Source: Pseudoxanthomonas kaohsiungensis (GTDB lineage Bacteria > Pseudomonadota > Gammaproteobacteria > Xanthomonadales > Xanthomonadaceae). Taken from it: a stretch of 64,000 bases of DNA. The stretch spans positions 62,001 through 126,000 of the forward strand of contig NZ_PDWO01000011.1 of NCBI RefSeq assembly GCF_010211765.1, in the 5' to 3' direction. A program made the position numbers and the translations under genes. The notes under the pieces are model-generated. The model did not search any database, was not told the origin of the DNA, and saw only the letters and a list, made by a program, of their open reading frames with translations. Of the stretch, positions 29,453 to 35,810 are shown piece after piece (the stretch's first letter is position 1; each line of letters begins with the position of its first letter).

Positions 29453-30895
<1,443 letters not shown>

Positions 30896-30937
30896 GTGTG
30901 CTCCGGGTCTATGGCGAGACGGGGTCTCGCTGTCGCC

Positions 30938-31046
30938 GGGCGCCGTTGTCGCGGTAATGCCATGCCGAGCCTGGCCGTGGATCGAAGCCACACGAAGTGC
31001 GGCTCTGCGGAAGATCCGCATGTCCATGGTCGCAGCGCCCCTCGGC
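30938..31046 (-). promoter_or_regulatory. SAH riboswitch upstream of ahcY
   Basis: On the minus strand the 5' part reads GCCGAGGGGCGCTGCGACC, then a variable hairpin region, the conserved GGCCAGGCTCGGCATGG, and CAACGGCGCCC at the 3' end. CCGAG pairs with CTCGG (P1), and GGGCGC pairs with GCGCCC to form the pseudoknot: the layout of the S-adenosylhomocysteine riboswitch known upstream of ahcY in beta- and gammaproteobacteria. It ends 42 bases before the ahcY start codon. Binding of SAH stabilises the pseudoknot and turns expression on. Confidence 0.9.
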
Positions 31047-31057
31047 GGGCGGCGCGC

Positions 31058-31224: not shown

Positions 31225-33936
31225 ATGAACGCTCCCCGCCAGCTCGAATTCGCCCCACCGGACCTGCCCCTGCGCGACGACGTGCGTCGCCTCGGCGCGC
31301 TGGTCGGCGACATGCTCGCCGAACAGGTCTCGCCGGCCTTCCTCGAGGAGGTCGAGCGGGTACGCACCACCGCGATCGCGCGGCGCCAGAACGGCGGGTC
31401 GATGGAATCGCTGTCGGCGCTGCTCGACGGGCTGGAGCCGGCGCACGCCGAGGCGCTGGTGCGTGCCTTCAGCACGTACTTCCAGGTGGTCAACATCGCC
31501 GAACGCGTGCATCGCATCCGCCGCCGCCGCGACTACCAGCGCGCCGATACCGGGACGCCACAGCCGGAGAGCCTGCACGATGCGTTGCTGCGCCTGAAGC
31601 GCCAGGACGTCTCGCCCGACGAGCTGCGCGACTGGCTGGAACGCATCGATATCGAGCCGGTGTTCACCGCCCACCCGACCGAGGCGGTGCGGCGCGCGCT
31701 GCTGGAGAAGGAACAGATCATGGTCGCGGCGCTGATCGACGACCTCGACGGCGCACGCACGCCCGGCGAACGCGCCGCCGACCTGGCCCGCTTCCGCATG
31801 GCCTTGACGTCGGCCTGGCAGACCGCCGATTCCTCGCCGGTGCGCCCGGGCGTGGAGGATGAACGCGAGCACGTGGGCTTCTACCTCACCGAGGTCCTGT
31901 ACCGGGTGATGCCGGTGTTCTACGAGACCCTGGACCACGCCATCGGCGAGTACTTCGGCATCGCCACCGACCTGCCGCGGCTGGTGCGCTTCGGCACCTG
32001 GGTCGGCGGCGACATGGACGGCAACCCGAATGTCGACGCGACCACCATCCGCAGCACGCTCGACGCGCAGCGCCGCGCGATCCTGGGCAGGTACCGCGCC
32101 GAGCTGCAGCAGCTGACCCACGTGCTGAGCCAGTCCACCGGCGTGGTCGGGGTCGATGCGCAGGTGCTGGCGCAGGTCGAGCGCTACCGCGGGCTGCTGC
32201 CCGAGGCCGCCGCCGCCGCCCGCCCGCGCCATGCAGACATGCCGTACCGCCTGTTGATCGACCTGATGGCCGCGCGCCTGCAGGCGACGCTGGAAGACCG
32301 CGCCGAGGGCTACGGTTCCCCGCGCGAGTTCGCCGACGACATCGACCTGATCCGGCAAAGCCTGGAGCACAACCGCGGCGTGCATGCGGGCTGGTTCTCG
32401 GTGCGCCGGCTGGTGTGGCGGCTCCGCACCTTCGGCTTCCACCTGGCGCGGCTGGACGTGCGCCAGGAATCGGGCGTGCACGCGCGCGCGGTGGCCGCGG
32501 CGCTGGAAGACGAGCAGTGGGAGTCGCGCGGACCGGTGGAGCAGGCGGCGCGGCTGGGCCCGTATGCGGGCGGAAGCCGGGTGTTGCCGGCGGTCGACGA
32601 GCCGGGCAACGCGCGCCTGGACGCGGTCTTCGCCGCGCTCAGCGACGCGCGCCGCCGGCATGGCCCCGACGCATTGGGCGCCTACATCATCAGCATGGCG
32701 CGCAGCCGTGCCGACGTGCTCACCGTGCTGGCGCTCGCCCGCCGCGGCGGCCTGGTCGAGGACGGGCAGGTGCCGCTGGACATCGCGCCGCTGTTCGAGA
32801 CCGTCGACGACCTGCGCCAGGGCCCCGACACCCTGCGCGACCTGCTCGCCGACCCGGTCTACCGCCAGCACCTGGCCGCGCGCGGCAACGTGCAGATGGT
32901 GATGCTCGGCTATTCCGACAGCGGCAAGGACGGCGGCATCGCGGCCTCGCGCTGGGGCCTGCAGCGCGCCCAGGTCGAGCTGATGCAGGCGGCCGAGGAG
33001 CTGGGCATCAAGCTGACGTTCTTCCATGGCCGCGGCGGCTCGCTCAGCCGCGGCGGCAGCAAGACCTCGCGCGCGGTGGATGCGTCGCCGCGCGGCAGCG
33101 TGGACGGCCGCCTGCGCGTGACCGAGCAGGGCGAGGCGATCCACCGCAAGTTCGGCATCCGCGCCCTGGCGCTCCGCTCGCTGGAGCAGGCCACCGGCGC
33201 GGTACTGGTGTCCAGCATCCGGCCCCGCGCGCCGGAGCCGCGCGAGGCGAAATGGCGCGAGGTGATGGACGCCGTGGCGCAGGCCAGCAGCCAGGCCTAC
33301 CGGGGCTTCGTCGGTGCGCCGCGTTTCATGGATTATTTCCGCAGCGCCACCCCGATCGACGTCATCGAGCGGATGACCCTGGGCTCGCGCCCGTCGCGCC
33401 GGCTGGGCCAGGACGCGGCGCTGTCGAACCTGCGCGCGATCCCCTGGGTGTTCGCCTGGAGCCAGGCGCGCGCGGTGATCCCCGGCTGGTACGGCGTGGG
33501 CACGGGCCTGCAGGCGGCGGTGGACCGTTTCGGCGAGGAAGCCCTGCGCGAGATGGGTCGGGACTGGCCGTTCTTCAAGACCTTCCTCGACGACGTCTCG
33601 ATGGTCCTGGCCAAGGGCGACATGGGCATCGCCGGGATGTTCTCGCGCCTGGCTGGCGAGGAACTCCACGGCGAGTTCTTCCCGCGGGTGCAGGCCGAGC
33701 ATGCGCTCACGCGGCGATGGGTCCTGGCCCTGAACGGCAACGAGTTCCTGCTGCAGCACGACCAGCGCCTGGCCCTGTCGATCCGCCTGCGCAATCCGTA
33801 CGTGGATCCGATCAGCGTGCTTCAGGCGGACCTGCTTGAGCGGTGGCGCGCCAGCGGCCGCGAGGACGATGCGCTGCTGCGCGCGTTGGTGGCCAGCGTC
33901 AATGGCGTCTCGCAGGGCGTTCAGAACACCGGCTGA
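31225..33936 (+). CDS. ppc: Phosphoenolpyruvate carboxylase
   Basis: 903 aa (E. coli 883), start ATG 31225; a GTG two codons upstream is also open. Carboxylates PEP with bicarbonate to oxaloacetate, refilling the TCA cycle. Active-site segments: [15 protein letters not shown] (catalytic H150), [31 protein letters not shown] (bicarbonate/PEP lysine region), [19 protein letters not shown] (glycine loop), [16 protein letters not shown] and the C-terminal end [12 protein letters not shown], which matches the conserved NGIAAGMRNTG type. Cytosolic homotetramer, normally activated by acetyl-CoA and inhibited by aspartate. Confidence 0.97.
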
Positions 33937-34098
33937 CGGCGGGTTCCGATCCGGTCCGATCCGGTCCGCCTTCGGGCCCGCGCTCCGCGCCGGGACGGAT
34001 GGAAGGCCGACGACGGCATGCCCTTGCCGAAGTCGAGCGGAAGCCGGAGCCGAAGCCGAAGCAAGAGGATCGTGTTGCGTGGGCTTCGGATGGGGCCG

Positions 34099-34200
34099 CC
34101 GCCCTGCCGCCATGGGGGTCGTCGCTCGCGCCGGCGTCCTGCCTCAGTTCGCGACCGCGGCACATCCTTGTGCCGCTCGACCCCCACGGCGACAGGGCGG
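34099..34200 (-). repeat. Palindromic element, copy 1: long stem enclosing two GGA-loop hairpins
   Basis: Outer arms 34099-34121 and 34178-34200 pair over 23 positions with two exceptions. Read on the minus strand, both exceptions become G-U pairs. Inside, on the minus strand: hairpin A with an 8-bp stem GCGGCACA/TGTGCCGC and loop AGGA (34176-34157), then hairpin B with core GGC-AGGAC-GCC (34143-34133) in a TCGCG/CGCGA stem. The ACAAGGATGT of hairpin A matches the CsrA-binding consensus core ACARGGAUGU exactly. Possible roles: mobile REP-like repeat, RsmA/CsrA-binding RNA, or transcription-end structure. Confidence 0.7.
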
Positions 34201-34389
34201 CGTCCTTCGGCGCGTTTGGGACATGGCTTCGATCATCGCCCTGCGTGGTGCGACATCCGGCGTAGCGATGCGGTTCGGCGTCCATGGCGGTATCGGTATG
34301 CCGGGATTGCTGGTCTGCGATGGCATGAAGCCGCCAGGCATGGCCTTTACGATCGGAGCCATGACCTGCACGTTGGCGGAGGTTGCCGT

Positions 34390-34483
34390 ACCCAAGGGCT
34401 ATGGCCCAAGTGGCACATGGATGTGCCACGGCCCTTCGTAAAGACAGGACGTCGTCCCGAAGGGTGGGCCATAGCCCTTGGGT
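34390..34483 (+). repeat. Palindromic element, copy 2: long stem enclosing two GGA-loop hairpins
   Basis: Outer arms ACCCAAGGGCTATGGCCCA (34390-34408) and its exact reverse complement (34465-34483), 19 bp with no mismatch. Inside on the + strand: hairpin A, 8-bp stem GTGGCACA/TGTGCCAC with loop TGGA (34410-34429), and hairpin B, CCCTTCG/CGAAGGG (34432-34464) enclosing GAC-AGGAC-GTC. Same order and spacing as copy 1 on the opposite strand, including a single A between outer arm and hairpin A, but the arm sequences are unrelated. Confidence 0.72.
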
Positions 34484-34535
34484 GCGGCGACCCCCCAAGG
34501 CGCCGGCCCTTCCGGATGCCCACGCCCCCCCAAGC

Positions 34536-34564
34536 AAAAAAAACGGGCCGCGCGAGCGGCCCGT
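34536..34564 (-). terminator. metK intrinsic terminator
   Basis: On the minus strand ACGGGCCGC/GCGGCCCGT (9 bp, 4-nt loop) is followed by a run of eight T, 26 bp after the metK stop. A strong canonical rho-independent terminator. Confidence 0.93.
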
Positions 34565-34589
34565 CTTCATAACAGCATTGCGCGGCCGG

Positions 34590-35810
34590 TTACTTCAGCT
34601 TGGCATCCGCGCGCAGGGCGTCGGCCCTGTCCGTCTTTTCCCACGAGAACGCGGTGGCGGCCTGCTTCTTGCCAGCCGCGTCGGTGTAGGTGACCTGCTG
34701 CGGCTTGCGGCCGAAGTGGCCGTACGCCGCGGTGGCCTGGTACACCGGGTGGATCAGGTCGAGCATCTTGACGATGCCGTACGGGCGCAGGTCGAAGTGC
34801 TTGCGGATCAGCTTCTCGATCTGCTCGTCGCTGATCCTGCCGGTGCCGAAGGTGGTGACCGAGATCGAGGTCGGCTCGGCCACGCCGATGGCGTAGGAGA
34901 CCTGCACCTCGCAGCGGTCGGCCAGGCCGGCGGCGACGATGTTCTTGGCCACGTAGCGCGCCGCGTACGCAGCGGAGCGATCGACCTTGGACGGATCCTT
35001 GCCCGAGAACGCGCCGCCGCCATGGCGGGCCATGCCGCCGTAGCTGTCGACGATGATCTTGCGGCCGGTCAGGCCGCAATCGCCCACCGGGCCGCCGATC
35101 ACGAAGATCCCGGTCGGGTTGATGTGGACCTTCTTCTTCGGCAGCGTTTCCAGCCACTTCTTCGGCAGCACCGGCTTGAGGATGTGCTCGTACACGCCCT
35201 CGACCAGGTCCTTCTGCTTGATGCCCGGATCGTGCTGGGTCGACAGGACCACTGCGTCCAGGCCGAGCACGTTGTGCTCGTTGTCGTAGCGCAGGGTGAC
35301 CTGCGACTTGGCGTCCGGGCGCAGCCACGGCAGCGGCGAGTTTTTCTTCTTGCGGACCTTGGCCTGCTGCTCGACCAGGCGGTGCGAGTAGTAGATCGGC
35401 GCCGGCATGAACTCCGGCGCCTCGTTGCAGGCGTAGCCGAACATCAGGCCCTGGTCGCCGGCGCCCTGTTCCTCGGGCTTCTTGCGGTCGACGCCGGCGG
35501 CGATGTCCGGCGACTGCTTGCCGAGCATGTTGATGATCGCGCAGGTGTGGCCGTCGAAGCCGACGTCGGAATTGTCGTAGCCGATCTCGTTGATCACCTT
35601 GCGCGCCAGCGACTCGATGTCGACCCACGCGGTGGTGGTGACCTCGCCGGCGACGATCGCCGCGCCGGTCTTGACCAGCGTCTCGCAGGCCACGCGGGCG
35701 CGCTTGTCCTGGGCCAGGATGGCGTCCAGCACGGCATCGGAGATCTGGTCGGCGATCTTGTCCGGGTGGCCTTCGGAGACCGACTCGGAGGTGAAGAGAT
35801 AGCTGGACAT
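34590..35810 (-). CDS. metK: S-adenosylmethionine synthetase
   Basis: 406 aa, start ATG 35810 ([20 protein letters not shown]). Makes SAM from methionine and ATP. Signatures: [19 protein letters not shown], the ATP-binding [19 protein letters not shown]-like [20 protein letters not shown], and the phosphate-binding [19 protein letters not shown]. Cytosolic homotetramer using magnesium and potassium. The frame is open upstream but that part has no family similarity. Its 5' region has a candidate operator shared with metF. Confidence 0.97.

Follow-up and report, generated by a model that had tools for sequence, protein, structure and literature searches.

Background

CsrB/CsrC and RsmX/RsmY/RsmZ are dedicated genes, each with more hairpins than the elements described below. 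For a second kind of RNA, the TwoAYGGAY class, CsrA binding was reportedly proposed by Gardner and Eldai. Published descriptions treat TwoAYGGAY as an RNA class of unknown function (PMC4333381, PMC2864571), enter it in the discovery table as "Human gut, gamma-Proteobacteria, Clostridiales" (PMC2864571), and mention two tandem GA in one of its stems as well as a proposal of CsrA binding drawn from motif matches (PMC4333381). The SELEX consensus for CsrA is given as RUACARGGAUGU, with an ANGGAN hexaloop, and most of the SELEX ligands have stems of four or fewer pairs (PMC7652899); one CsrA dimer is said to bridge sites that lie 10–63 nt apart (PMC4066749). For Xanthomonas, a passage of PMC3937308 reports that rsmB homologues were not found and states as open what opposes RsmA there. 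RsmU of X. campestris is an RsmA-binding RNA processed from a 3' UTR at one locus (comEA); its description assigns it to no known family and reports that RsmU with its four GGA changed still bound RsmA efficiently in vitro, with a remark on the position of the band (PMC7694677).

The element doublet between ppc and metK

The window (the whole stretch of 64,000 nt that was analysed) contains two convergent open reading frames, at 31225..33936 on the (+) strand (also found by a home-made gene caller) and at 34590..35810 on the (-) strand, which we take, in line with the preliminary description, to be ppc (phosphoenolpyruvate carboxylase) and metK (S-adenosylmethionine synthetase); the latter was matched in 16 of 17 genomes of the genus. 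The preliminary description placed two inverted copies of one structured element in the 653-nt gap between them, and sequence, inverted repeats and folds agree with it. Copy 1 occupies 34086..34209 with its GGA-bearing strand on (-), and copy 2 occupies 34377..34500 with that strand on (+), so that the doublet starts 150 nt past the end of ppc and stops 89 nt short of metK. They match the covariance model R1 (made from 51 copies) with 115.7 and 131.4 bits, respectively, scores to be read with the fact that both were among the sequences that built it. The homology is thus 124 nt long in each case, wider than the 102 and 94 nt first given, and the architecture proposed with those lengths stands.

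On the GGA strand both copies are predicted to fold into a three-way junction made of a long outer stem, hairpin A and hairpin B. The inverted-repeat arms lie at 34094–34121/34178–34205 in copy 1 and 34378–34408/34465–34495 in copy 2. Hairpin A of copy 1 (34157..34176, (-) strand) has an 8-bp stem and the loop AGGA in the context ACAAGGATGT, and the hairpin B core GGC-AGGAC-GCC is at 34133..34143 (-); in copy 2, hairpin A (34410..34429, (+) strand) has an 8-bp stem and the loop TGGA in the context ACATGGATGT, and the hairpin B core GAC-AGGAC-GTC is at 34443..34453 (+). These contexts and cores are present in the sequence just as first claimed; the single A said to precede hairpin A fails for copy 2, which has two unpaired A in the predicted fold. 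The hairpin A regions of the two copies are mutually complementary (34155–34177 versus 34409–34431, 87%). Copy 2 (+) folds at -77.5 kcal/mol (z -12.8) and copy 1 (-) at -80.9 kcal/mol (z -8.7), none of 200 shuffles folded as well as the window copies, and the opposite strand folds worse in both (-71.8 and -72.3). BLAST of the copy 2 stretch against the genome returned 43 hits with E<=0.001 (two being the arms of this stretch itself on the opposite strand), and the resemblance within the window is therefore not due to chance.

The spacer between the copies (34210..34376, no strand assigned) has inverted inner ends at 34223–34234 and 34351–34366 (ATGGCTTCGATC / GATCGGAGCCAT) and a middle that is unlike that of most other doublets. 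An inverted repeat at 34540..34567 forms a terminator-like hairpin adjoining metK; a similar hairpin is found by eye at the same place in relatives that have no doublet, and two weak Rfam matches to sRNA models (E<=5) fall on it. Elsewhere in the window, an SAH riboswitch (RF01057, 48.2 bits) at 30931–31049 (-) lies just upstream of the gene at 29453–30895, presumably that for adenosylhomocysteinase.

Copy number and arrangement

The preliminary description had staked its reading on the existence of further copies, and covariance-model and BLAST matches supply them in the genome and in relatives. In the parts of this genome that were examined R1 matches at least 80 sense copies, a lower bound because 150 of 4473 candidates were scored over the whole genome. 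Removal of duplicate loci (L036, L085, L102) and of overlapping opposite-strand matches had reduced the matches from 91 to 80 in the genome and from 77 to 61 in relatives; other genera contribute seven of these 61. Of the neighbouring copies that lie within 600 bp of one another in this genome, 31 pairs are ordered -+, two -- and none +- (24, 1 and 0 at the relatives' loci), and in the -+ order the 5' ends of the two elements face each other. Doublets repeatedly have inner ends like GGCTTCGATC...GATCGAAGCC, and the spacer middles are unrelated between most of them. By eye and BLAST, GTAG-type REP doublets are inserted in the spacers at L022, L023, L037, L116, L118 and L120–L125. Short tandem arrays such as (CGCAAC)n, (AGGAGCAACTGC)n and (AACGGC)n directly adjoin doublets in the left flanks of L017 and L018 and at L149, and copies of the outer end (TCCGAAGCCGACGCTTC-like) are repeated past the 3' end of the element in the downstream flanks of L027, L187 and L189. 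An RNase P RNA gene (RF00010; L034:2025–2377 (-), G000:C33) lies about 120 nt from one doublet.

By the genes that flank them (home-made gene caller), 23 of 46 clusters in this genome are in convergent, 21 in tandem and two in divergent gaps, while the corresponding numbers for the 124 gaps in these stretches that hold no element are 15, 73 and 36 (Fisher p 0.0003 for divergent against all others); in relatives, ten convergent and 23 tandem clusters were counted among the 33 (of 36) with both flanking genes. This placement in the genome favours a 3'-end RNA element that acts in cis, RsmA or another GGA-binding protein altering mRNA decay or processing while the summed titration is negligible, and the origin of RsmU from a 3' UTR (PMC7694677) speaks for it too. 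We consider such a purely local role quite improbable: the positions of elements differ between species at many loci, few being clearly shared, and a T run near the stem end is present in only one of 80 copies, which rules out an intrinsic terminator.

Signs of movement are found at the window locus and elsewhere. All five genomes of the genus in which the metK locus includes ppc lack the doublet there (gaps of 58, 83, 188, 317 and 844 nt, the last holding other sequence). Near-identical copies occupy different sites in P. koreensis, several of whose contigs end in or beside copies; in L172 (P. koreensis NZ_PDWM01000001) a copy is broken inside hairpin B by an apparent insertion-sequence end. 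Single copies sometimes retain a fragment of a second one (L014), and no target-site duplications are evident by eye in the flanks examined. Three positions are shared by two species, L040/L105 (111/124 identical), L037/L124 (94/122 and 93/123) and L023/L079 (100/123 and 86/122), with two to nine compensatory double changes and one to six lost pairs each; these sites are older. Some of the 12 syntenic copy pairs compared differ in subtype, or the doublet seems reversed (L041/L103, L017/L125), and these may be independent insertions.

The main rival to an RNA function is a purely mobile, REPIN-like DNA element, whose hairpins in single-stranded DNA would be recognised by a trans-acting transposase with the GGA loops as its recognition letters, RsmA being uninvolved. 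It draws on the inverted order of the doublets here and in relatives, the near-identical P. koreensis copies and the contigs that end at them, the ppc-metK gaps that lack the doublet and the second-copy fragments, and REPINs are described as sharing the doublet logic (PMC3116915). We think it unlikely. The ends of a doublet carry GGA on opposite strands, which leaves one GGA element on each single strand; and the three Y1_Tnp places of the genome, two among GTAG-type repeats (C33 and C14) and one adjoining what by eye is an apparent IS (C8), have no R1 match, the matches to a core model (R2, below) reaching only 15.6 and 11.3 bits.

Distribution and relation to TwoAYGGAY

R1 finds matches at E<=0.01 in 22 of 60 genomes, this one included. 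The family is patchy in Pseudoxanthomonas, two of whose 17 genomes have no match at the thresholds used, and the element is thus dispensable. NCBI places Pseudoxanthomonas in the family Lysobacteraceae, to which we take Xanthomonas to belong as well. Within this taxonomic family, the core model R2 has a match in 100 of 198 genomes and in 38 of 54 genera (E<=0.001, 24 candidates scored per genome); of 274 genomes sampled from the class it matches 19, and 16 of these belong to other taxonomic families. The E-values are approximate, and an isolated weak match may be due to chance. Among 20 places inspected outside the taxonomic family the three-way junction with its GGA loops is seen again, and nine of these loci have a neighbour within 600 bp, six ordered -+ and three +-, doublets that the REPIN-like alternative can also claim. 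GGA is kept in loop A of 30/30 and loop B of 24/30 elements of other taxonomic families (lost from loop B in six), and in loop A of 49/49 and loop B of 45/49 matches mostly from other genera of the family, a set that includes eight from Pseudoxanthomonas and one duplicate (L092/L208). Cargo of plasmids or phages was considered and rejected, as plasmids had no match for two queries and viral contigs gave zero and one stretches for two patterns. The one viral stretch, in contig IMGVR_UViG_3300026519_000253 (L223), is an exact hairpin A pattern, which may belong to a full element or to host DNA.

An existing relative, the TwoAYGGAY class of Rfam (RF01731), was overlooked in the preliminary description. 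Neither window copy matches RF01731 at its gathering score or at E<=5, and Rfam as a whole gave nothing for these copies at E<=5 except a plant miRNA model far below its cut-off. One copy elsewhere in this genome, C1:28879–28990 (L114), scores 43.3 bits against the RF01731 gathering score of 43 and is also an R1 match (64.7 bits), and five more places score 30.7–42.1 bits with RF01731. Elements of other taxonomic families reach 48.7–57.2 bits. Among nine loci of this and other families, three exceed 43 bits (L232, L236, L242), one has 39.7 bits, and for the remaining five nothing is found at E<=1; in a further 20 loci, all of other genera within the family, no RF01731 match reaches threshold. 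A scan of the 198 genomes of the taxonomic family (13 candidates scored in each) passed the RF01731 cut-off in five and gave nothing for this genome at E<=0.001; this figure and the 100 of 198 for R2 come from thresholds that are not one measure. We read the window elements as a divergent, high-copy branch of the TwoAYGGAY class and not as a new class.

Pairing and strand asymmetry

In 80 aligned copies (78 distinct), 98.5% of the cells are paired versus 72.3% after shuffling, and 661 cells are changed on both sides versus a shuffled mean of 176.7, a value reached by none of 500 shuffles; sliding the alignment by one to three columns drops pairing to 33.9–48.9%. Double changes occur in all 23 pairs of the outer stem, whose per-position diversity has a mean of 0.447. 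By a simple letter pattern, GA is present on both sides of the closing arm of hairpin B in 38 of the 80 copies, TTCG..CGAA in 14 and neither in 28. Window copy 1 has the GA letters, which are paired otherwise in its lowest-energy fold, and copy 2 is of the TTCG..CGAA form.

The mismatches tolerated in the outer stem depend on the strand. With strand-symmetric scoring, the ratio of G.T to A.C on the GGA strand is 85:8 in this genome (71 distinct outer stems), 49:13 in other Pseudoxanthomonas (42 distinct stems) and 45:4 in other genera (32 distinct stems); the 4:2 in other taxonomic families comes from 10 usable stems of 30, with 20 dropped, and is too small to inform. Stems with low scores were dropped (3/80, 4/54, 8/40 and 20/30), identical ones were merged, and the duplicate locus L092 was excluded. 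Counts on the model alignments are 117:5 and 82:7; forcing the alignments onto the shorter core model gives noisier counts of 39:19 and, contrary to the others, 16:33. A structure without a preferred strand is expected to give about 1:1, and the ratios lie so far from it that the GGA strand must matter as a single strand. That strand is most simply RNA, because G.U is a good RNA pair; single-stranded DNA is also possible. The excess of G.T over A.C supports a constraint that would act on the element at the level of RNA.

The same counts bear on the simplest alternative, an ordinary decaying repeat with no selected function in which palindrome correction between the arms keeps the pairing. High copy number, intergenic location and variable stems are all that one would expect of such a repeat; palindrome correction, however, would erase G.T and A.C alike, GGA is invariant beside a free N, and other genera and families keep the loops despite different stems. 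This explanation is already disfavoured, and we regard it as highly improbable. For the REPIN-like alternative the 85:8 ratio is awkward, as tolerated G.T with rare A.C suits RNA better than DNA. The hairpins of GTAG-type REPs, taken as a control for the asymmetry in DNA-recognised hairpins, gave 12 distinct ones with three A.C and no G.T, too few to serve.

The 56 copies that are read in sense by a neighbouring gene have a ratio of 82:3 and the 22 not so read one of 32:2 (78 of the 80 copies compared; one of 47 clusters, which had no right-hand gene, was left out). Since the asymmetry is equal without read-in from a neighbour, the constraint may come from a promoter of the element itself or from a step of its mobility, and this independence of neighbouring transcription is a point in favour of the REPIN-like alternative. 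That unread copies are equally kept counts against simple read-through at 3' ends as the only source of the constraint, and so against the cis-acting alternative.

The GGA loops and RsmA

The consensus of loop A is C A N G G A Y G: its C, its first A, both G of GGA and the closing G do not vary (diversity 0), whereas the last A has a diversity of 0.025 and N one of 0.52. For loop B the consensus is C A (N) G G A Y G; here the diversity at C, A, G, G and A is 0 in the 80 copies, 50 of which lack the N. The N of loop A is T or C in 48 copies and G or A in 32. The AYGGAY pattern is present in loop A of window copy 2 and absent from that of copy 1 (AAGGAT). The GGA loops are conserved among the genome copies, as the earlier reading needed (loop A 79/80, loop B 80/80, the N position being free), and in loop A of 58 of the 61 matches from relatives' loci. 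A nearly invariant CA, GGA and closing G around a variable N is, at the level of sequence, the CsrA/RsmA loop signature, and its agreement with the CsrA consensus and the ANGGAN hexaloop (PMC7652899) is a further point against loops that serve only a transposase. The distance between the two GGA is 25 nt in 76, and 23–27 nt in 127, of the 128 copies (out of 141) in which both motifs were found. The spacing suits one dimer, as first suggested, given the published range (PMC4066749); the elements thus have both sequence features of CsrA/RsmA-binding RNA, A(N)GGA in hairpin loops and two sites 10–63 nt apart. Two features count against the fit: the 8-bp GC-rich stem of hairpin A exceeds the stems described for most SELEX ligands (PMC7652899), and most copies lack the N of loop B. 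We judge it likely that the elements bind RsmA; a decoy role for them is possible, just short of an even chance.

CsrA was found in 17 of 17 genomes of the genus, and that of this genome has the usual VHREEIYQRI segment. CsrB (RF00018), the one model among those for CsrB/Rsm sRNAs that was run genome-wide, had no match at E<=1 in any of the 17; in 14 control genomes (E. coli first) it matched five, one above the cut-off. Fifteen of the 17 genomes have one CsrA match, the low-completeness genome G014 has two pieces of one CsrA, and this genome has three matches. Extra CsrA genes as the driver of element copy number are not supported, given the single match in 15 of 17. The two extra CsrA-domain matches lie on one contig (L046, G000:C77:40009–40161; L047, G000:C77:5027–5185). 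The first is in a reading frame of 76 aa, counted from the first usual start, and the second in one of 183 aa that has a long C-terminal part; the other genomes among the 17 have no extra matches.

We mildly favour the reading that the window doublet belongs to a dispersed, mobile-looking RNA family, a branch of TwoAYGGAY, that acts as scattered RsmA decoys. Its observed basis is the structure, covariation, loop conservation, strand asymmetry, copy number, doublet order, distribution and kinship with RF01731. The GGA strand of each element, read as RNA, would form the three-way junction and present two CANGGAYG-type hairpins about 25 nt apart, fitting one RsmA/CsrA dimer, and with the -+ order a transcript from either side would end with one sense element. 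The many copies, most of them behind gene 3' ends, could then take the place of one CsrB/RsmZ gene as decoys for RsmA, besides possibly marking the 3' ends at which they lie. Transcription, RsmA binding, titration and the mobility mechanism are what we infer in this scheme. A bolder version, which we hold to be rather unlikely, is that the missing RsmA antagonist of this bacterial family is, instead of a gene, a crowd of transposable RNA domains, inverted doublets at scores of gene ends that would each offer one dimer-sized RsmA trap whichever the direction of transcription, with gain and loss of copies tuning a global regulator.

The TwoAYGGAY class becomes testable through Pseudoxanthomonas strains from culture collections that have many copies, set against species of the genus without a match at the thresholds used, and through a strand-specific evolutionary signal. 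If RsmA does bind, the elements would help to answer what opposes it without an rsmB gene, as in Xanthomonas (PMC3937308), and a global regulator would be tuned by a mobile repeat.

Comparison with known systems

Like CsrB/CsrC and RsmX/RsmY/RsmZ, the elements have GGA hairpins of the CsrA-binding type and would work by sequestration; they differ in having two hairpins each and in being dispersed. RsmU, likened to them by its description, is an RsmA-binding RNA that comes from a 3' UTR of a member of this bacterial family, and differs in having one locus (comEA). With REPs, BIMEs and REPINs, as these are outlined in PMC3116915, the elements share dispersed extragenic inverted doublets, compensatory changes and less conserved spacers, whereas their units are three-way junctions of about 120 nt instead of short GTAG-tagged palindromes and have no adjacent Y1 (RAYT) transposase. 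None of the papers listed by literature searches describes, by its title or the start of its abstract, a multi-copy inverted-doublet GGA element. TwoAYGGAY (RF01731, clan CL00106) is the closest relative, with the same closing stem, ACAUGGAUGU-type loop hairpin, second GGA hairpin and outer stem. Here, in contrast, any base may stand at N, loop B often takes the form of a pentaloop, and about 80 copies lie in the genome in inverted doublets; among loci with RF01731 matches, two (L232, L236) were also seen to hold doublets. Several things about the elements described here are new: their copy number is high, their inverted doublets bear signs of mobility, their stems are under a strand-specific constraint, and they abound in a family in one genus of which, Xanthomonas, rsmB-type decoys are reported not to have been found (PMC3937308).
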